Shown in pieces: positions 13,958-34,024 of a stretch of 64,000 bases of DNA. Where the stretch lies: NCBI RefSeq assembly GCF_039641995.1, contig NZ_CP087714.1, positions 558,001-622,000 of the forward strand. Direction: 5' to 3'. This stretch comes from Geoglobus acetivorans (GTDB lineage Archaea > Halobacteriota > Archaeoglobi > Archaeoglobales > Archaeoglobaceae). Below the pieces are notes generated by a model. The model worked only from the letters and a program-made list of their open reading frames with translations, was not told where the DNA came from and searched no databases. A program made the position numbers and the translations under genes. Numbering within the stretch: position 1 is the stretch's first letter; every line of letters starts with the position of its first letter.

Positions 13958-15526
13958 TCATGACACCAGAATGTCTATGGTATCTATCACGATGTCGTCT
14001 GCAAGCAGTTCTATTGTTATCGTTTGAGGAGCATGCGGCTCCGGTGGAGTTATCTGAATTGAAAACGTAACCTGGCTGCCCCACGCCACATTCGTGTACT
14101 TGTCAGGAGTCCATGTAACAATCCATCCCGGTGGAGCGCTGGCCCTCAGGGTCAGGTTCCCGATTGGCTGTTCCGCAACCTCTTTTATCTTGTTTTCAAT
14201 GATTGTTGGTAAAGCGCTCAAATCTCCCTGCAGCTCGGCATAGGCGCCGTCGGTCATGTCTGCCATGTACATGAAGTTTGTTCTTGCATCATCGCTGAAC
14301 TCGTCGTCTCTGCCTGCGTAGATTGATATTATCGTCAATCCGAAGTCATTAGCAGAGTTGACGGTGTTCACGTAGTCAACATCATCTGAAGTGTTCATGA
14401 GCCAGTCGTCCCCGGGGTCTCCACCATAGTTGTTTTCGAAAACACTCAGGCCGTTTGGCATGTTGTGGGGCGGAGCGTCTCCGAGTATGACCAGTATTTT
14501 CCTTGCGTCATCTCTCCAGCTCATCTCACTCATCGCCTTGTGGATCGCATAAGCGTACGGCTCAGGCTCGTCGAGCCCATTTTTGATTTCAAGGTCGTTA
14601 ATCGCACCTGCTGCAGCGTTTATGTCGTAGGTCAGATCTGAATCCATTCTCCACGGATAGTCTCCGGGAGCTCCGTAATTTTTACCGTATGGCCATCCAT
14701 AGCCGTAGTTTTCGGAGTAGAGGTACAGTCTTGGATAATCTGCGAGGCTCGCAACACCGAATCGTGAATCCTGAATCAGAAGTCGTATGTCACTCATCAG
14801 GTCTATCGCACTGACCTTTGCCTGATTCAGCTCTTCCAGCATGCTGCCCGTTACGTCGAACATGAACACTATGTCGCCCTTGGGAGCTCTCTCCGGAAGT
14901 TCAACCCTCCATTCAAAGTTTTGCGGTACCGGTGTCGGAGTGGGTGTTGGAGTCTCTTCCGGTGTTGGTGATGGGGACGGCGTTGGGGTTGGCACAACAC
15001 CGTTGCACGGCTCTGCATGAATTCTGAGTCTTCCATCTATACTTCCAAGCTCTTTAGACTCTATAAGGAGACCGATCTCCTTCCTCTCTCCGGGAAGTAT
15101 CTGCAAAACGGTTTTCTGGGATGCGTTTAGATAGTCCTCAAGATATGTTTTGATCTCTTCAGGTTCTGAGGTTACGGTTACGTTTATGCAGACACCGTCC
15201 CACAGGTTGTTTGAAATTTCAAAGACCCTGTCGAATGCGTATTTGCTATCCGGACTGAGGCCCTCTCCCTTTCCTTCATCCCACTCTGGGTTGTTTGTGC
15301 TGAAGTCTATGTACAGCTTTCCATCCTGCCCGATATATGCATAGGGCTGGAGGGGTTTGAGGTCTATCAGTTCCTGATCGTCAGATACAACAGCGATGCT
15401 GTAGTTTCTCGTTGCAGTATATTCTGTGAATGTTGCCGTTATACCAATAACGTATGCTGATGCTATGAGGAGCATTACCAGCAGTCCTGTAAATGTCCAA
15501 ATCCTTTTTGGATTAGATTGTGGCAT
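13958..15526 (-). CDS. Exported DUF1102-VWA fusion protein (putative adhesin)
   Basis: A 522-residue exported protein. A signal helix (about residues 10-30) is followed by a DUF1102-type domain (about 32-174: ATFTEYTATRNYSI, DDQELIDLKPLQPYAYI). A Pro/Thr linker spans 179-201. A von Willebrand A domain covers about 217-425 with a MIDAS-like D224-V-T-G-S228. A C-terminal beta domain (about 447-522) ends in strands without a membrane anchor. VWA domains with MIDAS bind ligands through a metal ion and sit at the tips of many pili. As the only fusion in an array of DUF1102 proteins it could be the tip or adhesive subunit (inference). The start overlaps the upstream DUF1102 gene by 14 nt. Confidence 0.85.
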   Translation of the reverse strand: MPQSNPKRIWTFTGLLVMLLIASAYVIGITATFTEYTATRNYSIAVVSDDQELIDLKPLQPYAYIGQDGKLYIDFSTNNPEWDEGKGEGLSPDSKYAFDRVFEISNNLWDGVCINVTVTSEPEEIKTYLEDYLNASQKTVLQILPGERKEIGLLIESKELGSIDGRLRIHAEPCNGVVPTPTPSPSPTPEETPTPTPTPVPQNFEWRVELPERAPKGDIVFMFDVTGSMLEELNQAKVSAIDLMSDIRLLIQDSRFGVASLADYPRLYLYSENYGYGWPYGKNYGAPGDYPWRMDSDLTYDINAAAGAINDLEIKNGLDEPEPYAYAIHKAMSEMSWRDDARKILVILGDAPPHNMPNGLSVFENNYGGDPGDDWLMNTSDDVDYVNTVNSANDFGLTIISIYAGRDDEFSDDARTNFMYMADMTDGAYAELQGDLSALPTIIENKIKEVAEQPIGNLTLRASAPPGWIVTWTPDKYTNVAWGSQVTFSIQITPPEPHAPQTITIELLADDIVIDTIDILVS

Positions 15527-16013
15527 TGAGGGACACCCCCACCATCTGTCCGTTCCTCATATCGAATACAAAACCGACACAGGTTTCTTCCATCCATCCA
15601 AGCTGGAATATCAGGTGTTGCGTGGCAGTCTCGGGAGAATACGCTGTTGCAGATGTCGGCGCGTACATCATCACGCTGGGAGATGATGAATTCACGACGA
15701 ATGTAACTGTCTGGTTCTCCCACAGTGTGTTCTTCACGTAGAACATGCAATCAAATGCGTACAGCGTGTCGGGACTCAAACCGGCTCCGTATCCCGGATA
15801 CTTGGGATGGGACGGTGAGATATCTATGTACAGCTTTCCATCCTGCCCGATGTATGCATAGGGCTGGTTGGGGACAAGTCTGAGCAGTTCCTGGTCATCC
15901 GCAACAACCTGAACACGAAAACCCCTGTTTGCAGTGTAGTCCTTGAAATGGCTGCTGACCCCAGTTATCAATAAAAATGAAATTATTAGGACCGCTGTTA
16001 TCGCTGCTTTCAT
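15513..16013 (-). CDS. Exported DUF1102 protein (TasA/camelysin-like), copy 3
   Basis: A 166-residue secreted protein: signal helix at residues 3-19, then the family signature SSHFKDYTANRGFRVQVVAD, DDQELLRLVPNQPYAYIGQD, GAGLSPDTLYAFDCMFYVKN. Two cysteines (C89, C145) match the pairs in its two neighbours and may form a disulfide. No C-terminal membrane anchor. The ATG at 16013 is used because GAGGTG lies six bases upstream; a GTG nine bases earlier is also in frame. It lies between another DUF1102 gene (gap of 23 nt) and the VWA gene (overlap of 14 nt), so it is a middle gene of the operon. Proposed role: subunit of an extracellular fibre (inference). Confidence 0.82.
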   Translation of the reverse strand: MKAAITAVLIISFLLITGVSSHFKDYTANRGFRVQVVADDQELLRLVPNQPYAYIGQDGKLYIDISPSHPKYPGYGAGLSPDTLYAFDCMFYVKNTLWENQTVTFVVNSSSPSVMMYAPTSATAYSPETATQHLIFQLGWMEETCVGFVFDMRNGQMVGVSLNATI

Positions 16014-16036
16014 TGAAAACACCTCAAAAAATTAAG

Positions 16037-16579
16037 TTATTCCTGGTAAGGGTATGCATGCATAGTCATTTCTCCGGTGTAATCGCCCGTCTTTATGCCG
16101 GTGGTATCTATGACGAACCCTATGCACGCCTTATCTCCATTCTCGATCACAACGTGGAGGTTGGTTGTTGCGTTGGCAGGATCGGTGTTGCCCTCGTCAC
16201 TTTTATCCGAGTATATCTTCACGATTCCCTGTAGTTCGCTGGACAGATCGATGTCCATCCCTATTGTCATATTTTCTTCCCAGAGATCGTTTGAGACGCA
16301 GAAGACATCGTCGAACACGTATTTCGAGTCAGGGCTTACACCCTTTCCGTATCCCGGGTAATTCTCGTTCTCTGCGTCAAACCTGACTATGAGTTCTCCA
16401 TTGTCACTGTCAATGAATGCGTATGGCTGGTTCGGTGTCAGATCGATAAGTTCCTGGTCATCTGTTACGATAGCTATTGTGAAATTCCTTTCCGCATGGT
16501 ACATTCTGAAGTCGGCGCTAAGCCCTGAAACAAGTGCTATGGCGATGGAAAACATCACCAGGTATATTATTTTGTTCAT
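16037..16579 (-). CDS. Exported DUF1102 protein (TasA/camelysin-like), copy 2
   Basis: A 180-residue secreted protein: signal helix about residues 4-20, then SADFRMYHAERNFTIAIVTD, DDQELIDLTPNQPYAFI, GKGVSPDSKYVFDDVFCVSN and LWEENMTI. Cysteines C94 and C152 match the pairs in the flanking copies. Several N-x-S/T sites are present (for instance NMT, NAT), so surface glycosylation is possible. A GGGGTG site precedes the ATG. It is separated from the upstream copy by 14 nt and from the downstream copy by 23 nt, indicating one operon. Differences in the loop between the two Cys residues suggest the copies have diverged in exposed regions. Confidence 0.83.
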   Translation of the reverse strand: MNKIIYLVMFSIAIALVSGLSADFRMYHAERNFTIAIVTDDQELIDLTPNQPYAFIDSDNGELIVRFDAENENYPGYGKGVSPDSKYVFDDVFCVSNDLWEENMTIGMDIDLSSELQGIVKIYSDKSDEGNTDPANATTNLHVVIENGDKACIGFVIDTTGIKTGDYTGEMTMHAYPYQE

Positions 16580-16593
16580 AGGTCAGCACCCCA

Positions 16594-17109
16594 TTACTCG
16601 GCAGGTTCAGCATGTATTGTTAGCTGTCCCTCTATGCTATCTCCGGGTGATTTCCCGTCTCCATCAAAGCTCATTCCAACGCAGACTTCCTCTCCCTGTG
16701 GAACGTTGAAGTTGATAGATGTGCTTGCTTCGTCTGGGTCATTCGTGTACAGCTTGACCAGATCGTTGTTGGATGTGATCGTCACGTTTATCGTTACGTT
16801 CTCCTCCCACAGGTGGTTTGAAACGTTGAACATGCAGTCAAACGAGTACTTTGCATCCGGGCTAATTCCAAGACCACCGCCGTCAGGATAGTTGTCGTTG
16901 TTTTCGCTTATGTCGATGTACAGTTTTCCGTCATCTCCTATGTATGCATACGGCTGCCCGGGATCCAGATCAATTAATTCCTGATCGTCAGCCACGACCG
17001 CAACATGCACGCTTCTGTCGGCGTCATAGCTGGCAAAATCTGCCCCAATCCCTAAGGCAAACACAAGTGCTCCAATCAGGAGCACGACTCCCACAAGCCT
17101 TTCGAACAT
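16594..17109 (-). CDS. Exported DUF1102 protein (TasA/camelysin-like), copy 1
   Basis: The 171-residue first gene of the surface-fibre operon. A signal helix (about residues 5-22) precedes ADFASYDADRSVHVAVVAD, then DDQELIDLDPGQPYAYIGDD, GLGISPDAKYSFDCMFNVSN and HLWEENVTINV. The mature part should be a small beta sandwich; C92 and C143 may pair. Bacterial TasA/camelysin and archaeal bundling pilins begin in a comparable way just after SipW cleavage, where the new N terminus acts as donor strand. The start has GAGGTG nine to ten bases upstream, and an island promoter element about 50-70 nt upstream. Confidence 0.85.
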   Translation of the reverse strand: MFERLVGVVLLIGALVFALGIGADFASYDADRSVHVAVVADDQELIDLDPGQPYAYIGDDGKLYIDISENNDNYPDGGGLGISPDAKYSFDCMFNVSNHLWEENVTINVTITSNNDLVKLYTNDPDEASTSINFNVPQGEEVCVGMSFDGDGKSPGDSIEGQLTIHAEPAE

Positions 17110-24454: not shown

Positions 24455-25249
24455 TCACGGAAAGCTCATTCCTGCCAGAGAAGGCTCATGTCCTGGCAGA
24501 ATGTTTTTCCTTCTTGTGATAGACAGAGCCTTGTAGCAGCTATCGTACCACTCGCTCAGATCAACATGCAGACCGACCGGAGCGAAAGGAAGCGGTACAG
24601 GCCCAATCTGAATCTTGCCCCCTGATGCATCGTCTATTTCGACCGTCTCTTTCGGTGGATTCAGGTTCAGGTATGTGTATAAGTGGTCTCCCGCGACAAG
24701 ATACATTCCCTTTTCCGTCTCAACAGCGACTCCCTGAAGACCCTTTGTGTGGCCCGGAAGTGAGACGAGCTCGATTCCGTCAGCAATCCTCTTATCTCCA
24801 TCAACCAGGCAGAGGTCCATATCCTCAAGAGGCTGGAAAAGCTGCTGGTCATAGGTCAGTCTGTAGTGCAGCGGTGGATTGAATGCGCTCTCCCATTCTC
24901 TTTTCTGGACATAAATTCTGGCGTTGTGGAATAGCTGGGCGTTTGCCACGTGGTCGAAGTGCAAGTGCGTGAGGATCAGAACGTCTATTTCCTCCGGCGT
25001 AACATTCACCTGGCTGAGTGCTTCTCTGAGGCCTTTTTCTCCTCCACCCGATACCGGAAAACCGTGAACCATTCCGTTTACAGGTTCCTCGATTCCTGCA
25101 TCTATGAGAATCTTCTTTTCTCCGTCCAGATACCACACATACACAGGCCCGTTGATGAACTTCGTCATGTCTCCGAGCATCTGAATTACTCCCAACGGGG
25201 CCATAATCTCGGCCTGTTTTAATGGCTTAATCACATACATTTCATTCAC
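24455..25249 (-). CDS. Metallo-beta-lactamase-fold hydrolase
   Basis: A 264-residue MBL-fold protein with the dinuclear metal motif H95-L-H97-F-D99-H100 (LTHLHFDHVANA), the later ligand in SLPGHTKGLQG, and AGDHLYTY. It resembles lactonase/glyoxalase-II type hydrolases that open lactones or thioesters. The gene starts in an ATGA overlap (25246-25249) with the acyl-CoA ligase gene, so the two are coupled; thioester or lactone hydrolysis in the same pathway is the likely use. Length is normal for the AHL-lactonase-like branch. Confidence 0.85.
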   Translation of the reverse strand: MNEMYVIKPLKQAEIMAPLGVIQMLGDMTKFINGPVYVWYLDGEKKILIDAGIEEPVNGMVHGFPVSGGGEKGLREALSQVNVTPEEIDVLILTHLHFDHVANAQLFHNARIYVQKREWESAFNPPLHYRLTYDQQLFQPLEDMDLCLVDGDKRIADGIELVSLPGHTKGLQGVAVETEKGMYLVAGDHLYTYLNLNPPKETVEIDDASGGKIQIGPVPLPFAPVGLHVDLSEWYDSCYKALSITRRKNILPGHEPSLAGMSFP

Positions 25250-26901
25250 TCTCCTTTCTGCTTTTCTCTTTCCTGGAGAACTCTCCAGAGAATCTTACCT
25301 GCCCCGCTCTTCGGAAGCTCCTTGACAAACTCAACTATGCGGGGGTACTTGTAGGCGGCCATTTGCTCCTTTGCCCATTTTATTATTTCCTGCTCGCTAA
25401 CTCTGCCTTCATACTCGGGCTTCAGAACAACAAACGCCTTCACTTCCTCGACAACCCTGCTGTCAGGAACTCCTATGACGCAGACTTCCTTTATCGCAGG
25501 GTGCCTGTACATCACGCTTTCAACCTCTGCTGGCCACACCTTGAATCCCGCTCTGTTGATCATCCTCTTGATTCTGTCAACGATGAAGAAGTAGCCATCT
25601 TCGTCCATGTATGCTATGTCGCCCGTTCTGAAGTATTTTTTGCCTCCGATCTCAATGAATGCCTTTTCGGTCTCTTCAGGCTTGTTCCAGTATCCTTTGA
25701 AGACTTCCGGCCCTCTTATTACAAGCTCCCCCACTTCCTTTGGGGGCAGAACCTCGCCAGTTTCTGCGTCTATTATCAGGGCATCAACGCCGAAGTCCGG
25801 AATTCCGAGACACTGGAGTTTGGGGTTGCCGGGCGGATTCATGTGTGTCTGGGAAATTGTTTCGGTCAGACCGTATCCTTCCACGTATTTCAGCCCGGTT
25901 AACTGAAGTAGCTTTTCAGCAACGGCTTCAGGCATTGGGGCGCCTCCACCACCCACTGCCAGAAGAGAACTCAAATCCCGCTTTGAAATGTCCGGATCTG
26001 AAAGCAGATCGACAACCATCGTGGTTATGTTCATCCAGTGTGTGCAGCGGTACTTCTCGATGGCCTGAATTGCGGTGTTTCTGTCCCATCTTGACAGCAG
26101 CACTATTGTCGCTCCGGCGTAAATTGGGGCGAGCATGGAGTGAATCATACCCGTAACGTGGAAGTAGGGAAGGGTGGCGAGAGAAATCGATGCGGGTGTC
26201 ATGTTCCACCAGTGAACCGAGCTTAGCGTGTTGGCGATTGCCGTGGAATGTGTGTGCATGCAGCCTTTTGGCATCCCGGTTGTGCCTGCGGTGTATGGTA
26301 TCAGGGCGAGGTCATCACCGCCAACCTCAACCTCTGGAGGGTTTCTTTCTTTCAGTGCTTCGTTCCATTCTGTTGCGCTCCCCGTGTCGAACTCGGTTCG
26401 GGCAAATTCCGGAACGGGCAGCTCTGGTTCATCGGGCAGGTAGTCAGAATGGTGACCGCAGATTACATCTATGCCAAGTTTTTCTGCGATTGGGGCAATC
26501 CTCTGATAAAGCTCTGATGTGGTTGCTACCATTTTACAGCCCGAGTCCGATAGAATGTACTCCAGCTCTCTTTCGACAAGCATCGGGTTCACGGGAACAA
26601 CAGCTGCGTTTCCTCTGAGAATTCCGAAATATGCGATCACGTAGTGGGGCGAGTTCTGCATGTACACCGCCACTCTGTCTCCTTTCTGAATCCCCTTCGA
26701 CGCAAGATGGGTGCTGAACCTCTCCACCGCATCCCACAGCTCTGAATAGCTTATCCGTTTTCCATAGAAGATTATGGCATCCTTGTCAGGGTATCTCCTT
26801 GCAGAGGTTTCAAGAAACTCAAAGAGGGGCACTTCTGGATAAACCAGCTCTCTTGTCAGCATTTCTGGCCATGATTTCAGCCAGGGTTTTTCACCATCCA
26901 T
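25246..26901 (-). CDS. Acyl-CoA synthetase (AMP-forming), first copy
   Basis: A 551-residue ligase of the ANL superfamily. The P-loop motif LIPYTAGTTGMPKGCMHTHS is near residue 195-215, then YGLTETISQTHMNPPG (A4/A5), the hinge region TGDIAYMDEDGYFFIVDRIK, and the C-terminal catalytic Lys in PKSGAGKILWRVL. It activates a carboxylic acid as acyl-AMP and then acyl-CoA; medium- or long-chain fatty or aryl acids are possible. It is followed by the MBL hydrolase gene in the same operon. Transcription probably starts close to the ATG, inside a perfect inverted repeat. Confidence 0.92.
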   Translation of the reverse strand: MDGEKPWLKSWPEMLTRELVYPEVPLFEFLETSARRYPDKDAIIFYGKRISYSELWDAVERFSTHLASKGIQKGDRVAVYMQNSPHYVIAYFGILRGNAAVVPVNPMLVERELEYILSDSGCKMVATTSELYQRIAPIAEKLGIDVICGHHSDYLPDEPELPVPEFARTEFDTGSATEWNEALKERNPPEVEVGGDDLALIPYTAGTTGMPKGCMHTHSTAIANTLSSVHWWNMTPASISLATLPYFHVTGMIHSMLAPIYAGATIVLLSRWDRNTAIQAIEKYRCTHWMNITTMVVDLLSDPDISKRDLSSLLAVGGGGAPMPEAVAEKLLQLTGLKYVEGYGLTETISQTHMNPPGNPKLQCLGIPDFGVDALIIDAETGEVLPPKEVGELVIRGPEVFKGYWNKPEETEKAFIEIGGKKYFRTGDIAYMDEDGYFFIVDRIKRMINRAGFKVWPAEVESVMYRHPAIKEVCVIGVPDSRVVEEVKAFVVLKPEYEGRVSEQEIIKWAKEQMAAYKYPRIVEFVKELPKSGAGKILWRVLQEREKQKGE

Positions 26902-26935
26902 ATCGTTAAATCATGATTATTTCATATTTAACGAT
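26902..26935. promoter_or_regulatory. Operator-like inverted repeat ATCGTTAAAT-N14-ATTTAACGAT
   Basis: Perfect 10-bp arms directly abut the ligase start codon and cover its probable TATA box and transcription start. The right arm with its flank (26917-26937) matches 20 of 21 bases at 30552-30572, before the 4-hydroxybutyryl-CoA dehydratase operon. The Lrp-like regulator gene at 27131 is nearby. Confidence 0.55.
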
Positions 26936-27130
26936 TTCGATTTGGAGTTATGTTATCATAATACGAAATATTACACCTTAGAATAATAATATGATGCGAT
27001 TCTATCTGTCAAAAGACAATCATTCACTCTCTAAAGCGGTGTATGGGCATATACTGTGATTATTTTGTCCAAAGGTTCGTCAGAAGCCGTAACCGAAAAT
27101 TAGATAAACTTCTGAAGGTTTTTTCACATT

Positions 27131-27619
27131 ATGCGAAAGAATGGTCTTGATGAGATTGACAAGAAGATTGTGGAGTACATTCTTAAAGGAAAAACACAGA
27201 GCGATATTGCTAAAATGCTCGGCATAACTCTGAGGACCGTGCAGAACAGGATGAAGGCATTAGAGGATGAGGGTTATCTGATCAAGCTTAAAGAGGGATA
27301 CTGGATTGCGGATTACCAGAAACTCGGGCTGAGTTTGCTGGATGTAACCTTTCTGGATCTGGCCATGGACTCCAAGGATAAAATTGACGTGCTGATCGAG
27401 CATTTAAAGAAGCTCGATTTTGTGGAGAATGTGTTTGAGATCATGGGATCTGCATACGATCTGGGCTTTATCGTCAGATACAAGGATATTGAGGAATACA
27501 GAGAGCAGAAAAGGATTTTCCTGAAATGGCTCCGGAAAAACGGAATCAACATAAATCACATTCAGACGTTCATAGCATCCAAAACTCACAAGGATCACAG
27601 AAGGACAATCATCGTCTGA
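27131..27619 (+). CDS. Lrp/AsnC-like transcriptional regulator
   Basis: A 162-residue protein with an N-terminal HTH (about residues 5-55: DEIDKKIVEYILKGKTQSDI, AKMLGITLRTVQNRMKALED) and a C-terminal domain (about 75-150) resembling a RAM-like ligand-binding ferredoxin fold (VEHLKKLDFVENVFEIMGSA-type; actual VENVFEIMGSAYDLGFIVRY). It stands divergent from the acyl-CoA ligase operon and before a second ligase gene. Regulation of the surrounding acyl-CoA genes through the repeats at 26902 and 30552 is inferred from position. Probably leaderless (AT box near 27100-27112). Confidence 0.82.
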   Translation: MRKNGLDEIDKKIVEYILKGKTQSDIAKMLGITLRTVQNRMKALEDEGYLIKLKEGYWIADYQKLGLSLLDVTFLDLAMDSKDKIDVLIEHLKKLDFVENVFEIMGSAYDLGFIVRYKDIEEYREQKRIFLKWLRKNGININHIQTFIASKTHKDHRRTIIV

Positions 27620-27752
27620 TTTATATTTTTCTGCAAATAATTTATTCTGCAGATTGTACATGCGCCTGTTTTTTTACAGCACATCCACTCATTTTTCCGT
27701 TTCTCCCAGATGGTGTCATTATGTTCATATAATACACCAATAATTAAATTTA

Positions 27753-27783
27753 ATTTCGTAAAATGAGTAATAAAATCCGAAAT
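27753..27783. promoter_or_regulatory. Inverted repeat ATTTCG-N19-CGAAAT before the second ligase
   Basis: Six-bp arms at 27753-27758 and 27778-27783, ending 33 nt before the ATG at 27817 and next to its TATA candidate (GTTTAAGTAT, 27784-27793). Different from the ATTTAACGAT element, so it may be a site for another protein, or chance in AT-rich DNA. Confidence 0.25.
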
Positions 27784-27816
27784 GTTTAAGTATGATCAAC
27801 CATCTGACAATCTGTT

Positions 27817-29607
27817 ATGAAAGAAAATGAATATTTCGAATTGCTGAGGGAAAAATGGAGCAAAATCTGGCCACACCCGTCGCTGCCTGAGGAGCCAGTA
27901 TACCCGCTTGGAAAAGTACCCATACACGAATATCTGGAGATATATGCTGAGAAGGTGCCGTCAAAAGACTATCTGATTTACTACGGCCGGAGAATATCGT
28001 ATGGGGAGATGGATGATCTGAGCAGCAGATTTGCCAGTTACCTCGTTGAAAACGGTTTTGAGAAGGGAGACAGAGTGGCTCTCATCCTTCCCAACATGCC
28101 GCAGTTTTACATCGGGTATTTTGGCACACTTAAGGCCGGCGGAATCTGTGTCCTCCTGAACCCGATGCTCAGGGAAATAGAGCTGGAGTACTTTTTCCAG
28201 GAGTCCGGACCGAAATTTATACTGACTCTCGATGTGATTTATCCGGTGGTTGAGAGTGCAGCCAGAAAAGTATCCGGTGATATTGACATTATAGCTGCAT
28301 CTTTCAGGGAGTTCCTTCCGGAGAATCCCGAAATACCCATCCACCCGTCTATGGAATCACCAGAAAAACTGGAGGGTGTCCTGTACATCTCGGATGTTCT
28401 GGAAAACGTAACTGCGAACAGGCCAGGGGTAAAGGTTACACTCGATGATTATGCGACCATGAACTTCACCGGAGGTACAACCGGACTGCCAAAGGGGGTT
28501 TACCACAGACACCACAACGTTCTGTACACTGCTGCCAGCATATACACGTATTTCAATGCCCACCTGCTTGTCGAGCAATACGCTAATCAGCAAGTTGATT
28601 TTGAAAAATTCGTATCCGATTTATCGAAAACCGAAGTTTCACTGGCTGCAATGCCTGTCTTCTGGATTGCGGGAAACGATATGGGTGTTGTGAGTCCAAC
28701 CCTCGCCGGTTCCACAGTTGTGCTGCTCACCCGATGGGATGTTGAGGCAGCGCTGGAAGCAATTCAGAAATACGGGGTTACCACAACATTCGCCCCCTTT
28801 GATCTCTACTGGGAGATTCTGAGCCATCCGGATGTTGAAAAATACGATCTGACCTCTCTGAGAAACTGCACCGGATCGAGCTTCATCAAAGGGCTGACGA
28901 AGGAACTCAGGGAAAAATGGAAGAAGCTGACGGGAGCGATACTGAGGGAGGCTGCTTACGGTCTTACAGAGACGCACACCTTTGACACCGTTACTGCCGG
29001 GTTCCATGTAAACGATCTGGACATAGAAAGGGCGGAGAAGTACAGTGGAACCTTCTGCGGCATACCTGTTCCCGGCACACTGATAAAGATCGTTGATGAG
29101 CAGGGAAATATCGTTCCTCTGGGCAAGGAGGGTGAACTTGCTATCAAATCTCCCTCCATGGTGGACGGCTATATCGGAAGACCTGAAGAAACTGCGAAGG
29201 CGTTCAGGGATGGCTGGCTGTTCACGGGAGATGTGGCGATGTATGATGAGGATGGACTGCTGTATTATCTTTCCCGCAAGAAGTACATGCTTAAAGTTTC
29301 CGGAATAAGCGTTTACCCAACCCAGATAGAGTTCATAATGCTCCGCCACCCTGCAATCGAGCTTGTGGGAGTTGTAGGCGTGGATGATGCTGAGAAGGGG
29401 CAGGTGCCTGTAGCGTTTGTCAAGCTGAAGAAAGAGTACGCTGGAAAGGTGAGTGAGGAGGACATTCTGAAATGGTGCAGGGATAACATGGCGCCGTACA
29501 ATGTTCCAAAGACAGTAATTATCCGTGAAGAGCTTCCTCTCACGGCAACGGGCAAGGTAATCAGGGAAGAGCTGATTAAGGAGTCTGAACGGCTCAATCT
29601 GAACTGA
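27817..29607 (+). CDS. Acyl-CoA synthetase (AMP-forming), second copy
   Basis: A 596-residue ANL-superfamily ligase. The P-loop MNFTGGTTGLPKGVYHRHHN is near residues 216-235, then AAYGLTETHTFD, the GDVAMYDEDGLLYYLSRKKY hinge, and the catalytic Lys in LPLTATGKVIREEL. It differs from the copy at 25246-26901 by extra loops (for example around residues 250-275) and probably handles another acid. It begins an operon with the enoyl-CoA hydratase gene 12 nt downstream. Probably leaderless: a TATA-like run lies about 25 nt before the ATG. Confidence 0.92.
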   Translation: MKENEYFELLREKWSKIWPHPSLPEEPVYPLGKVPIHEYLEIYAEKVPSKDYLIYYGRRISYGEMDDLSSRFASYLVENGFEKGDRVALILPNMPQFYIGYFGTLKAGGICVLLNPMLREIELEYFFQESGPKFILTLDVIYPVVESAARKVSGDIDIIAASFREFLPENPEIPIHPSMESPEKLEGVLYISDVLENVTANRPGVKVTLDDYATMNFTGGTTGLPKGVYHRHHNVLYTAASIYTYFNAHLLVEQYANQQVDFEKFVSDLSKTEVSLAAMPVFWIAGNDMGVVSPTLAGSTVVLLTRWDVEAALEAIQKYGVTTTFAPFDLYWEILSHPDVEKYDLTSLRNCTGSSFIKGLTKELREKWKKLTGAILREAAYGLTETHTFDTVTAGFHVNDLDIERAEKYSGTFCGIPVPGTLIKIVDEQGNIVPLGKEGELAIKSPSMVDGYIGRPEETAKAFRDGWLFTGDVAMYDEDGLLYYLSRKKYMLKVSGISVYPTQIEFIMLRHPAIELVGVVGVDDAEKGQVPVAFVKLKKEYAGKVSEEDILKWCRDNMAPYNVPKTVIIREELPLTATGKVIREELIKESERLNLN

Positions 29608-29619
29608 TCCGATGGGGTT

Positions 29620-30432
29620 GTGAAAATGGAATGCGTTAGGGTTGAAACTCTTGATAGCGGGATAGCGAAAGTTTACCTCAACAGGCCCCAGGTAATGAAC
29701 GCGATAAACGCCAGCCTGAGGCACGAGCTTGAGGAGGTGCTGAAGGAACTTGCAGAGGATGATGGCATCAGGGTGGTCATAATAACCGGTGCGGAAGCCC
29801 AGGGGAAAAGAAAGGCTTTCTCGTCAGGCGATGATTTGAGGGAGCTGGAGTTTGACATCAATAGCCCAGATGTCCTGTCAGAGTATTACAAAAGCGTGGA
29901 TAACGTCATGAGGCTGTTCAATTTCATTGATGACTATCCCAAGCCCGTAATAGCCATGGTCAATGGAATATGCATGGGAGGAGGACTGGAGCTGGCGCTG
30001 TGCTGTGATTTTATATTTGCATCCGAGAGTGCGGTATTCGCATTCCCTGAGGCAGGCATAGGGTTCATACCTGGATGGGGAGGCACTCAGAGGCTTTCAA
30101 AGCGGATAGGCGAATCAAAAGCGAAGATGCTGATCTACACTAGCGATATCTTGGACGGAAAGAGGGCAGCAGAGCTTGGTCTGGTTGATTTCCTGACCAC
30201 TGATAGCGAACTGGAGCAAAAGACCGTCGAATTTGCCATGAAGATTGCGGAAAAAAGCCCGCTGGTAATAAAAATGGCGAAAATTGCGATAGAGCGGGGG
30301 ATGGAATCAAGTCTGAGGTCAGGGCTGTATTATGAGGTGCTGTCCCTCATGGTGTCCCTGAAGACTGAGGATCTCAGGGAGGGATTCTCTGCATTTCTTG
30401 AGAGGAGAAAGCCTGAGTTCATGGGCAGGTAA
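29620..30432 (+). CDS. Enoyl-CoA hydratase/isomerase
   Basis: A 270-residue crotonase-superfamily enzyme. The oxyanion-hole loops are visible: KRKAFSSGDDLRELEFD near residues 63-79 and CMGGGLELALCCDF near 116-129, with the acid region AFPEAGIGFIPGWGGTQRLS near 142-161 (Glu144- and Gly-rich). It hydrates or isomerises an enoyl-CoA in beta-oxidation or a related route. It follows the second ligase by 12 nt. A GTG at 29620 or the ATG at 29626 may be the start; the longer form is given. Confidence 0.92.
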   Translation: MKMECVRVETLDSGIAKVYLNRPQVMNAINASLRHELEEVLKELAEDDGIRVVIITGAEAQGKRKAFSSGDDLRELEFDINSPDVLSEYYKSVDNVMRLFNFIDDYPKPVIAMVNGICMGGGLELALCCDFIFASESAVFAFPEAGIGFIPGWGGTQRLSKRIGESKAKMLIYTSDILDGKRAAELGLVDFLTTDSELEQKTVEFAMKIAEKSPLVIKMAKIAIERGMESSLRSGLYYEVLSLMVSLKTEDLREGFSAFLERRKPEFMGR

Positions 30433-30551
30433 TGCTTTCCTGAGAAATTGCCCTTTTTAATTTTATTTAGTTTTGCCGCTAAAACCCTGAATCAGAGGTG
30501 TCCTGTGCCGGGTTTATTTTTGGTTCGTAGCCTGGTGAATATGTTGGTAAG

Positions 30552-30572
30552 TTATTTCATATTTGACGATTT
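30552..30572. promoter_or_regulatory. Second copy of the ATTTrACGAT operator-like element
   Basis: Bases 30552-30572 match 26917-26937 in 20 of 21 positions (core TTTCATATTTrACGATTT). It lies 64-84 nt before the abfD ATG, upstream of the AT box at 30600-30615, where an activator would bind. Only one arm is conserved here. Confidence 0.5.
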
Positions 30573-30635
30573 AATAACCTGATTTTTTTGATAGAATACG
30601 AAAAAATTAAATAAAATGATTAGTCAGTTTAGATT

Positions 30636-32063
30636 ATGAGGACAGTCGAGGAATACCGGAATGACCTGTACAGCATGAAGCCCAACGTGTATATTGCGGG
30701 AAAAAAGGTGAAAAGAGATGACCCCAGGCTTCGAGGCGGGTTATATGTCATGTCGAAAACATTCGAACTTGCAAACCATCCGGATTATAGGGATCTCCTG
30801 ACAACACGATCACATCTGACCGGGAAGAAGATTAACAGGTTCACACATGTCAATCAATCTGCTGAAGATCTGCTTGCAAAGCAGGAGATGACGAGAAAGC
30901 TCTGCCATCTTGTGGGGGGATGCATTCAGCGCTGTATGGGCTGCGATGCGATAAATGCTCTGTCAATCGCAACCCATGCTGCGGACATGGAGCACGGTAC
31001 TGATTACAGCCAGAGATTTGCTGACTATCTGAAGGAATTTCAGAGCAGGGACCTGACAGCTGCCTGCGCCCAGACTGATGTAAAGGGTGACAGAAGCAAA
31101 AGACCTCACGAGCAGGAAGACCCTGACATGTATCTCAGGGTTGTAGAGCAGAGAAGCGATGGTATTGTTGTCAGAGGAGCGAAAAACTGCATCACGATGT
31201 CTGCAGTTGCTGATGAGATAATTGTTGTGCCTACGAGAGCCATGACTCCTGCCGACAAGGATTACAGCGTTGCGTTTGCCGTTCCCGCAGATGCAGAGGG
31301 TGTGAAAATAATCTCAAGAACGTCCTCTCTGAGGGCTCCGGAAGAGATGGACATGCCTCAGGCAAACGTCGGGGATGATGAGGGTTTTGTAATCTTTGAC
31401 GACGTCTTCGTCCCGTGGGACAGGGTTTTTCTGTGCGGTGAGAATAAATACGCTACACTCTCAGCACACCTTTTCGCATTGTTCCACCGACACAGCTACA
31501 CGGGCTGCAAGCCGGCCACCACGGACATCGTGATGGGCTTTGGGGCTTTGATAGCCGAATACAGCAACATTTACGACAAACACAACATCCGGGAAAAACT
31601 CGTGGAGCTTGCATCGGTTGCTGAGCTTGTTTATGCTGCGGGAATTGCCTCTGCCATAAACGGGACAAAGACACCTGCCGGGACGTTTCTTCCGAACGAA
31701 ATCTATGCCAACGTTGGCAGAAGATATGCCGGGCTGAACTACTACCACGAACTGGAGATTCTCGCTGAGCTGTCAGGTGGTCTGCCTGCGGCGCTGCCCT
31801 TTGCGGAGGACTTCCTGAATCCAGAAACCAGACCGTTCATAGAGAAGTACATTAAAAGGCGGTCAGACGTTCCTGCAGAAAACGTTTACAGGTGTCTCTT
31901 TGGAATCTCTAACATACTGTGCTCGTCTTTTGGCGGTGTTCAGGCCGTTGCCGGAGTGCATGGAGGCGGTTCTCCGGTCATGGAGGACATTGCAATCTGG
32001 AGAAGCTACAACTTTGAAGAGAAGAAGGAAATAGCCAAGTATCTGACGGGAATAAAGGAGTGA
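30636..32063 (+). CDS. abfD: 4-hydroxybutyryl-CoA dehydratase / vinylacetyl-CoA isomerase
   Basis: A 475-residue flavin and [4Fe-4S] enzyme of the 4-hydroxyphenylacetate-hydroxylase fold. The four cluster ligands known from the Clostridium enzyme (Cys99, Cys103, His292, Cys299) have clear counterparts with the same spacing: C96 and C100 (GGCIQRCMGC), H284 and C291 (FHRHSYTGCKP). It catalyses the radical dehydration of 4-hydroxybutyryl-CoA to crotonyl-CoA and vinylacetyl-CoA isomerisation. In Archaeoglobales several such paralogues exist and their physiological route is not settled. An Fe-S protein gene follows by nine nt. Confidence 0.93.
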   Translation: MRTVEEYRNDLYSMKPNVYIAGKKVKRDDPRLRGGLYVMSKTFELANHPDYRDLLTTRSHLTGKKINRFTHVNQSAEDLLAKQEMTRKLCHLVGGCIQRCMGCDAINALSIATHAADMEHGTDYSQRFADYLKEFQSRDLTAACAQTDVKGDRSKRPHEQEDPDMYLRVVEQRSDGIVVRGAKNCITMSAVADEIIVVPTRAMTPADKDYSVAFAVPADAEGVKIISRTSSLRAPEEMDMPQANVGDDEGFVIFDDVFVPWDRVFLCGENKYATLSAHLFALFHRHSYTGCKPATTDIVMGFGALIAEYSNIYDKHNIREKLVELASVAELVYAAGIASAINGTKTPAGTFLPNEIYANVGRRYAGLNYYHELEILAELSGGLPAALPFAEDFLNPETRPFIEKYIKRRSDVPAENVYRCLFGISNILCSSFGGVQAVAGVHGGGSPVMEDIAIWRSYNFEEKKEIAKYLTGIKE

Positions 32064-32072
32064 GGTGGAATT

Positions 32073-33116
32073 GTGAGCCATGAAATCTTGATGAAGAGGC
32101 TGGGCTTTCCGGATTCCCGGTTGCTCAGGGGCATTCTCGAATATCTCATGACTGAGGAAGAAGCTAGGGTTGCTGCTGCTCTGCCCGGAAGTGTTGATGA
32201 GGTTGCCGAAAGGCTGGGAATGGATGCTGAAAGGGTAAGAGACATACTTGACGGTCTTTTCCACAAAGGAGTAGCCATTCCAAGGGATTTCAGGAAGAAG
32301 GACCATTACAAATTCGTGAGGGACATCATACAGCTTCACGATGCAACCATGGCTTCACGGCACATGAACGATCCGGAATTTGCCAGGCTCTGGAAGGAGT
32401 TCGGTGACAGGGAGATGAACCCTGCAGTTGGCAGAATGCTCACCGACATGGGTTTGAAGTTCTGGAGGGTTGTGCCGGCTTATGAGGCAGTAAAGGATCT
32501 GCCGGATGTGCTACCCTACGAGAACATCAGGGAGATGATAGAGGCACAGGAAAAGATTGCCGTTGTTCCATGCTCCTGCAGGAATGTTACAAGGCTTGCA
32601 TCTGACGGATGCAGCTTTACGGATGAATTCAGCACGTGGCACTGCATTCAGTTTGGGAGAGGTGCAGAATACGCCATTGCCAGAGGATCGGGCAGAGAAA
32701 TCTCTGTCGAAGAGGCTCTTCAGATTATTGCCGAGGCTGAAAGGGATGGGCTCATCCACACGTGGGCCAACACCTCGAAAATTGTAGACCCCGTTGTAAC
32801 TGTGAACTGCAACTGCTGCGGGGACTGCTGTGAGTTTTTCCTCTCGTCAAGGGCCGCAAACGTACCTCTCGGCGTGCAGCTTGAAAAAAGCAGGTATGAG
32901 GCTTACGTTGACGACGAGGCATGCACCGGATGCCAGACCTGCGTGAAGAGGTGCCACTTCAATGCGGTGGAAATGTTTTCGCCTGATGGCAGCAGGAAGC
33001 TGAAAGCCAGAGTCATTGCAGAGAAATGCTTTGGGTGCGGTGTCTGTGTGGTTGGGTGCAGGCAGAAGGCGATAAGGCTCAAGGCTGTCAGACCGCCCGA
33101 GTTCATACCGGACTAA
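32073..33116 (+). CDS. Fe-S protein with N-terminal HTH-like region and two [4Fe-4S] sites
   Basis: A 347-residue protein. Residues about 20-75 look like a winged-helix fold (PGSVDEVAERLGMDAERVRD, ILDGLFHKGVAIPR). A central region contains PCSCRN (about 167), GCSFTDEFSTWHC and CNCCGDCCEF (about 249-258), which may bind another cluster. Two [4Fe-4S] ferredoxin motifs end the protein (CTGCQTCVKRCHFNAVEM and CFGCGVCVVGCRQKAIRL). GTG start with GAGGTGG upstream. Cotranscription with abfD suggests electron supply, activation or regulation of that enzyme (inference). No defined name for the family is known to me. Confidence 0.82.
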   Translation: MSHEILMKRLGFPDSRLLRGILEYLMTEEEARVAAALPGSVDEVAERLGMDAERVRDILDGLFHKGVAIPRDFRKKDHYKFVRDIIQLHDATMASRHMNDPEFARLWKEFGDREMNPAVGRMLTDMGLKFWRVVPAYEAVKDLPDVLPYENIREMIEAQEKIAVVPCSCRNVTRLASDGCSFTDEFSTWHCIQFGRGAEYAIARGSGREISVEEALQIIAEAERDGLIHTWANTSKIVDPVVTVNCNCCGDCCEFFLSSRAANVPLGVQLEKSRYEAYVDDEACTGCQTCVKRCHFNAVEMFSPDGSRKLKARVIAEKCFGCGVCVVGCRQKAIRLKAVRPPEFIPD

Positions 33117-33526: not shown

Positions 33527-34024
33527 GTGATTTCATTGAGCAGGGAAATTGAGATTCTCAAGATTCTCGAAAACAATTCACGAATTTCGAGTAACGAAAT
33601 AGCTGAAATGCTCAATATGGATGTTCAGGAAGTTGAGGATATCATTAAAAAATACGAGGATGATGGCGTCATTCTGAAATACAAGACGCTCATCAACTGG
33701 GAAAAGGCCGGTGTGGAAGAAGTATATGCGATAATTGATGTCAGGGTAAACCTCAGCAGGGAGAAGGGTTACGACGATATTGCAAAAAGAATCGCCAAAT
33801 TCCCCGAGGTTCATGCTGTGAGGCTTGTGAGTGGGGAATACGATTTTCAGGTCGTTGTTAAGGGCAAATCGCTGAAGGACATATCATTTTTCATCGCCGA
33901 GAAAATCTCAACAATTCCGGAGGTCAGGGACACCAACACGCACTTTCTCCTGAGAACGTATAAGGAAGAGGGAGCGCTTCTCTTTGAAGATGAAGAAGAC
34001 AGGAGGCTTGCAATTGTCCCGTGA
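33527..34024 (+). CDS. Lrp/AsnC transcriptional regulator
   Basis: A 165-residue Lrp-family protein: HTH at about residues 5-50 (SREIEILKILENNSRISSNE, IAEMLNMDVQEVEDIIKKYE) and a RAM domain at about 65-150 (VEEVYAIIDVRVNLSREKGY, VHAVRLVSGEYDFQVVVKGK with the conserved G-x-x-D). It overlaps the aminotransferase gene, a common Lrp-aminotransferase pairing, so control of that gene by an amino acid is likely. The given GTG is near the expected start of a transcript from the AAATTTAAAA box at about 33492-33502; a TTG at 33536 with GGTGA five bases before it is an equally good start. Confidence 0.88.
   Translation: MISLSREIEILKILENNSRISSNEIAEMLNMDVQEVEDIIKKYEDDGVILKYKTLINWEKAGVEEVYAIIDVRVNLSREKGYDDIAKRIAKFPEVHAVRLVSGEYDFQVVVKGKSLKDISFFIAEKISTIPEVRDTNTHFLLRTYKEEGALLFEDEEDRRLAIVP

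Follow-up and report, generated by a model that had tools for sequence, protein, structure and literature searches.

The genome of the thermophilic archaeon Geoglobus acetivorans contains a 21-bp element that occurs twice, once before an acyl-CoA ligase gene (LIG1) and once before abfD, the gene for a homologue of 4-hydroxybutyryl-CoA dehydratase. We analysed this element in a window of 64,000 nucleotides (contig NZ_CP087714.1, G000:C1:558001-622000, G000 being this genome of 1,903,522 bases in a single contig). Between the two copies lies the gene of an Lrp-like regulator, here called REG, as had been recognised in an initial annotation of this DNA. Our results suggest that the repeat is probably an operator site of REG, and that REG represses its own gene, both ligase genes of the locus (LIG1 and LIG2) and abfD. 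The sites, their ranking, pairing and conservation, and the linkage of the genes were computed, whereas binding, the sign of control, ligand and substrate are what we infer.

The repeated 21-mer and the 17-bp palindrome

The two copies, TTATTTCATATTTAACGATTT at 26917-26937 and TTATTTCATATTTGACGATTT at 30552-30572, are identical at 20/21 bases, as the annotation had stated. In a scan of the whole genome at up to 3 mismatches only these two places matched, with 0 matches for the reversed-pattern control, and when the window was shuffled 100 times with its dinucleotides preserved, two matches at this threshold never appeared together. Within the window, the only other source of 20/21 pairs is one unrelated 86-bp repeat. 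The core ATTTrACGAT was found at 10 places in the genome against 3 for its reversed control, so the 10-mer is less special than the 21-mer. Many random copies in the genome had been named as the observation that would speak against the element; this objection applies in part to the 10-mer and not to the 21-mer.

The annotation had also described the first copy as one arm of an inverted repeat, perfect over 10 bp, across the LIG1 start. This inverted repeat exists (26902-26911 and 26926-26935, directly before the LIG1 ATG at 26901). However, its left arm is lost in Archaeoglobus sp. JdFR-37 (G031), whereas the right part stays and the 21-mer is kept there at both promoters. The inverted repeat was therefore rejected as the operator. 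The conserved element is instead a 17-bp palindrome of the Lrp type, which occurs in pairs 32 bp apart.

This palindrome is best seen at the start of REG itself. Among the 19 REG orthologues, 15 carry TTTCRYANNNTRYGAAA around the start codon at no more than 2 mismatches, and the copy in G. acetivorans is the only 0-mismatch site in its genome. The second codon is CGA in all 15 palindrome-bearing genes, although of the 260 Arg codons that 13 window genes contain only 8 are CGA. The constancy of a rare codon indicates constraint on the DNA in addition to that on the protein. The neighbour of REG in 14 genomes is an operon for a thiolase, an OB-fold protein, an acyl-CoA dehydrogenase, an enoyl-CoA hydratase and a 3-hydroxyacyl-CoA dehydrogenase (read from the translation starts, with a Pfam domain check in G001). 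The palindrome precedes the thiolase gene at up to 2 mismatches in 13/14 of these operons, and G002 has 3 mismatches.

A symmetric 17-bp position weight matrix (PWM) was built from sites at the REG start and in the adjoining gap, all from other genera. Of 30 such sites in 15 genomes, the 7 with more than 2 mismatches were dropped, and the remaining 23 come from 13 genomes. Over the 63,984 positions of the window, the six sites of the locus rank 1, 2, 3, 5, 6 and 9 (Table 1), such that three intergenic gaps of 629 bp contain six of the top nine matches. None of 1000 column-permuted matrices placed six of its top nine in these gaps; the best placed four, once. When pairs spaced by 32 bp were ranked, the best two in the window were those at abfD (23.9) and LIG1 (20.2), followed by one at 12.6. 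The same two pairs came out best with 4/1000 permuted matrices, as is expected because of the letters common to both pairs. The matrix matches and the ranking of the pairs identify the repeated 21-mer as the A half of a tandem arrangement, A + 32 bp + B, which is a predicted operator. As both copies score in a matrix derived from REG-linked promoters of other genera, the proposal that one regulator serves both predicted sites is supported.

A genome-wide regulon based on the palindrome at up to 2 mismatches was tried and rejected as too noisy, giving 110 sites when the reversed control already gave 70. Six sites in the genome have 0-1 mismatch: two at this locus, two in coding sequence (131968 and 1365551), one between small open reading frames (ORFs; 870563), and a sixth at G000:C1:1587927. 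This last site, of the REG type and scoring 13.9, is located 181 bp upstream of another abfD-like gene of the HpaB family, where a divergent ORF has its 5' end.

Conservation of the sites and the abfD operons of other genomes

Both 21-mer copies are present in G025, with the same gene order as in G. acetivorans. In G031 the LIG1 copy is retained at 21/21 bases and the abfD copy at 20/21, even though abfD lies on another contig, beside a divergent and different acyl-CoA ligase. The distance from the end of the 21-mer to the abfD ATG is 63 bp in all three genomes. Fourfold-degenerate sites of REG, abfD and LIG1 agree between G000 and G031 at 165/437 positions (38%; for LIG1, the near-identical copy on contig L041 was used), which means that unconstrained DNA is largely scrambled between them. 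In both relatives the two promoters keep A and B at +32. LIG1-A is identical in both, LIG1-B scores 8.3 in G025 and 10.2 in G031, and abfD-B scores 14.8 and 7.7, respectively; the LIG2 site is the same in G025. Thus predicted 17-bp sites in 32-bp pairs, as is characteristic of Lrp/AsnC regulators, are found at two promoters in three genomes. Across all relatives, the 21-mer itself was found before REG, abfD or FDX (the gene following abfD) only in G000, G025 and G031. This rarity first seemed to speak against REG, but the start-codon palindrome shows that there is a general site, of which the 21-mer is one of the weaker forms.

Contig L041 was assigned to the metagenome-assembled genome (MAG) of Ca. 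Mnemosynella biddleae JdFR-21 and shares 99.9% identity with Archaeoglobus sp. JdFR-37 across 3886 bp. Mis-binning has probably occurred in one or the other MAG, and L041 was not counted as independent of G031. In G031 itself, the stretch G031:C1:4000-9000 contains a perfect palindrome, TTTCATATTATGTGAAA, at offset 2465 between MaoC-like and MBL-like genes (named by eye; MBL, metallo-beta-lactamase) and a 1-mismatch site at offset 691. Both are candidates for further REG targets.

The abfD operons had been absent from the training of the matrix. We scored a 200-bp stretch upstream of the first gene in each operon, leaving out G031, and found a site of at least 12 in 10/19 operons of other genomes and of at least 10 in 11/19. 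Random windows of the same size contained a site of at least 12 in 81/5700 cases. Counted by position, there were 11/3667 inside and 2/162,600 outside (Fisher P 4e-17). The operons without a site are those of G007, G012, G013, G032, G046, G049, G051 and G052 (of 19), and four of these genomes (G012, G013, G032 and G049) have no close REG either.

Several observations weigh against control of these promoters by REG. For every abfD operon we chose the first gene by eye, using a listing in which the hits were visible too, a possible source of bias. REG is present in G007, G046 and G052, and as a fragment in G051, yet the abfD operons of these four genomes have no site of at least 9. Conversely, G004 (12.4) and G045 (19.4; an assembly of 220 contigs) have a site before the abfD operon, and no close REG orthologue was found in either. 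The REG genes of G021, G047, G048 and G050 are without the start-codon palindrome. Furthermore, LIG1-A, LIG1-B and abfD-A are weak sites with 3 mismatches each, and a paralogue of REG at G000:1158711-1159178, described below, has the same RTVQNR core and could bind the same predicted sites.

The regulator and its proposed mode of action

REG has an N-terminal winged helix-turn-helix (HTH) of the Lrp type (PF13412, HTH_24, E 4.9e-11), and its HTH_AsnC-type match of 24.0 bits is below the cut-off of 27. The AlphaFold2 model (predicted local distance difference test score 87) matched the Lrp/AsnC protein PH1519 in Foldseek with E 4.6e-10 and prob 1.00. Over its full length the predicted structure matches PH1519, AsnC and Lrp (prob 1.00) with a template modelling score of about 0.5 and a root mean square deviation of 11-13, values that probably result from the orientation of the domains. 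A RAM domain of the order beta-alpha-beta-beta-alpha-beta is visible in the predicted fold only (E69-77 H79-94 E98-103 E111-117 H120-136 E141-149). PF01037 (RAM) did not match the REG sequence at E 1e-3 and matches 3/24 members of the family; the RAM domain of REG is too divergent for this Pfam model. REG passed no NCBIfam cut-off. Orthologues of at least 65% identity were found in 19 genomes, G000 included, and the recognition-helix residues RTVQNR are identical in all of them; these counts and those of the start sites exclude the G051 fragment (at a contig end, lacking the N-terminus) as well as G026 and G029, which are distant. At E 1e-40 the family, paralogues counted, occurs in 23/246 sampled genomes of the phylum, namely 22 Archaeoglobaceae and G178, in which the REG-family contig is L041, the copy of G031.

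A paralogue of 44% identity is encoded at G000:C1:1158684-1159181, with RTVQNR kept in a related recognition helix. It stands back to back with a divergent 3-hydroxyacyl-CoA dehydrogenase-like gene, has an acyl-CoA synthetase-like gene after it (both named by eye), and is possibly a second regulator of beta-oxidation.

We propose that a REG dimer reads the palindrome TTTCRYA-N3-TRYGAAA. The near-perfect copy across the REG start codon would provide negative autoregulation; a leaderless REG transcript would start at this place, some 25 bp downstream of the TATA box. Weaker copies would act in tandem before LIG1 and abfD, three helical turns apart on the same face of the DNA, and singly before LIG2. 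LIG1-A would cover the transcription factor B recognition element (BRE) and TATA box, abfD-B would overlap the BRE, and the LIG2 site would lie just before it. The promoter layout was read by eye and the start sites were inferred; the BRE/TATA assignments are putative and follow general archaeal promoter rules. As the sites lie on promoter elements, REG would keep the promoters shut by blocking TATA-binding protein and transcription factor B (TFB), or the polymerase. A ligand, most likely an acyl-CoA, a hydroxyacyl-CoA or an acid, would then release REG. The ligase, lactonase, dehydratase and enoyl-CoA hydratase would be made together, and 4-hydroxy or fatty acids would be passed on to beta-oxidation.

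Archaeal Lrp sites are described as imperfect palindromes of 13-17 bp, clustered two or three turns apart, and autoregulation as common; blocking of RNA polymerase by LrpA and possible promoter occlusion are described as well (PMC2995911). Repression is the simplest reading of the predicted sites. The initial annotation had proposed that one operon is repressed and the other activated or modulated. A dual role, in which REG represses LIG1 and itself by covering promoters and activates abfD from the distal A site, appears rather unlikely to us. The A site does lie 81-65 bp before the abfD ATG and upstream of BRE/TATA, much as the annotation had placed the second copy, with a spacing that is fixed in three genomes, and an activator function has been described for Ptr2, LysM and Ss-LrpB (PMC2995911). 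However, the stronger abfD site is B, where a bound protein is expected to collide with TFB, and the same A + 32 + B module occurs at LIG1 in the opposite orientation, with A on the TATA box. As the LIG1 site lies over BRE/TATA and abfD-B on the BRE, repression of both genes fits better.

We also give little credence to the 21-mer being mainly a minus-strand core promoter, that of LIG1 and, at abfD, the relic of a divergent ligase promoter. On the minus strand the sequence of the LIG1 copy is TCGAAATCGTTAAATATG, located about 25-40 bp upstream of the ATG, and the abfD copy of G031 precedes a divergent acyl-CoA ligase. In G000, however, nothing diverges at abfD, and the BRE/TATA-like part has decayed (TTAAATCGTCAAATATG) whereas the operator letters stay. 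Nor does a core promoter account for the B sites at +32, the palindrome at the REG start or the lack of scoring sites at the remaining promoters of the window. That another protein binds the sites, either the REG paralogue or a second Lrp-like protein encoded at 33527-34024, is improbable as well. The paralogue keeps RTVQNR and has a 3-hydroxyacyl-CoA dehydrogenase-like gene as its neighbour, and sites occur in G004 and G045, where no close REG orthologue was found; yet the sites track the REG start codon and the REG-adjacent operons in 13/14 genomes, and the gap between the paralogue and its divergent neighbour reaches a score of only 7.4. Although intergenic DNA is AT-rich and ATTTrACGAT has 10 copies in the genome, a chance repeat is next to impossible, being already contradicted by a 21-mer pair that is unique in the genome and kept twice in another genus, and by the matrix test.

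Repression by REG may be compared with known archaeal systems. REG resembles the Lrp/AsnC (feast/famine) proteins LrpA, Ptr2, Ss-LrpB, FL11 and PH1519 in fold, palindromes, tandem spacing and predicted autoregulation, and differs from them in its divergent RAM domain and narrow spread (23/246 genomes). Whereas the usual theme of Lrp is amino-acid genes (PMC10201364), REG is associated with acyl-CoA ligase, beta-oxidation and dehydratase genes. By its presumed job it is like FadR of Sulfolobus acidocaldarius, which represses fatty-acid genes in a lipase/beta-oxidation cluster from semi-palindromic operators and is released by acyl-CoA (PMC6449355); by analogy, an acyl-CoA-like signal may act on REG. 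However, FadR is a TetR-family protein of unrelated fold, and the fold matches of REG are to Lrp/AsnC rather than TetR. MDR1 of Archaeoglobus fulgidus, from the same archaeal group, blocks recruitment of RNA polymerase (PMC2995911), but unlike REG it is metal-dependent and has other targets.

Predicted target genes and the proposed role of abfD

Table 1. Genes and predicted REG operators of the locus (window positions; PWM ranks are over 63,984 positions).
Feature	Position	Strand	Evidence
MBL-fold hydrolase, lactonase-like	24455..25249	-	PF00753; overlaps LIG1 end
LIG1, AMP-forming acyl-CoA ligase	25246..26901	-	PF00501 E 5e-101
LIG1 operator A (predicted; 21-mer core)	26920..26936	.	PWM 10.0, rank 6; over LIG1 BRE/TATA
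LIG1 operator B (predicted)	26952..26968	.	PWM 10.2, rank 5; 32 bp from A
REG operator TTTCACATTATGCGAAA (predicted)	27122..27138	.	PWM 24.1, rank 1/63,984; spans REG start codon
REG, Lrp/AsnC-like regulator, 162 aa	27131..27619	+	HTH_24, AlphaFold2 + Foldseek
LIG2 operator (predicted)	27754..27770	.	PWM 13.6, rank 3; upstream of BRE/TATA
LIG2, second AMP-forming acyl-CoA ligase	27817..29607	+	PF00501 E 8e-75
Enoyl-CoA hydratase/isomerase	29620..30432	+	PF00378 E 3e-61
abfD operator A (predicted; second 21-mer core)	30555..30571	.	PWM 9.1, rank 9; 81-65 bp before ATG
abfD operator B (predicted)	30587..30603	.	PWM 14.8, rank 2; 32 bp from A, overlaps BRE
abfD, 4-hydroxybutyryl-CoA dehydratase / vinylacetyl-CoA isomerase homologue	30636..32063	+	Best PDB 1u8v E 1e-101
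FDX, 4Fe-4S protein after abfD	32073..33116	+	Fer4 domains

LIG1 scores above the NCBIfam cut-off for the long-chain-fatty-acid--CoA ligase PRK08314. The MBL-fold protein is nearest to lactonases, and its best PDB match is the N-acyl homoserine lactonase AiiA (E 6e-16). In AbfD, C96, C100, H284 and C291 align with C99, C103, H292 and C299 of 1u8v (4/4), residues that we take to be the 4Fe-4S ligands. FDX has a long N-terminal part without a Pfam match before its 4Fe-4S domains. REG is found near FDX in G014, G048 and G050. In G007, G012 and G013 a LIG1-like ligase gene, an MBL gene and abfD (identified by translation starts) stand in one run, which supports the earlier suggestion that CoA activation is tied to the dehydratase. 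The gene set would fit a route in which a lactone is opened to a 4-hydroxy acid by the MBL protein, converted to the CoA ester by LIG1 and to a crotonyl-CoA-type product by AbfD, and then enters beta-oxidation.

Elsewhere in the window, the 86-bp direct repeat (15306-15391 and 15823-15908, 80% identity, spacing 517) belongs to a stretch (ORFs 13958-17109) in which paralogous genes for small proteins that look secreted follow one another on the minus strand; one of the proteins carries a C-terminal extension. This row is a tandem duplication.

Genes for beta-oxidation number in the dozens in Archaeoglobales, which oxidise long-chain fatty acids (PMC4600277). Whether the 4-hydroxybutyryl-CoA dehydratase homologues of these archaea serve carbon fixation or acid use is under debate; of the A. 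fulgidus abfD homologues on H2/CO2, AF0885 was up 1.5-fold and AF0333 and AF1027 were not induced (PMC3949148). Induction of one of three genes, at 1.5-fold, gives no strong support for a role in carbon fixation. Our literature search, which covered papers outside subscription, found no described regulator of Archaeoglobi fatty-acid genes. REG is thus apparently a member of Lrp/AsnC with an unusual gene set and the first candidate regulator of beta-oxidation in Archaeoglobi. A defined predicted operator is now available for testing. The predicted sites of REG, which link abfD to ligases, a lactonase-like gene and beta-oxidation, speak for a catabolic role of abfD, and the locus points to a local control switch for the activation and breakdown of fatty and hydroxy acids.

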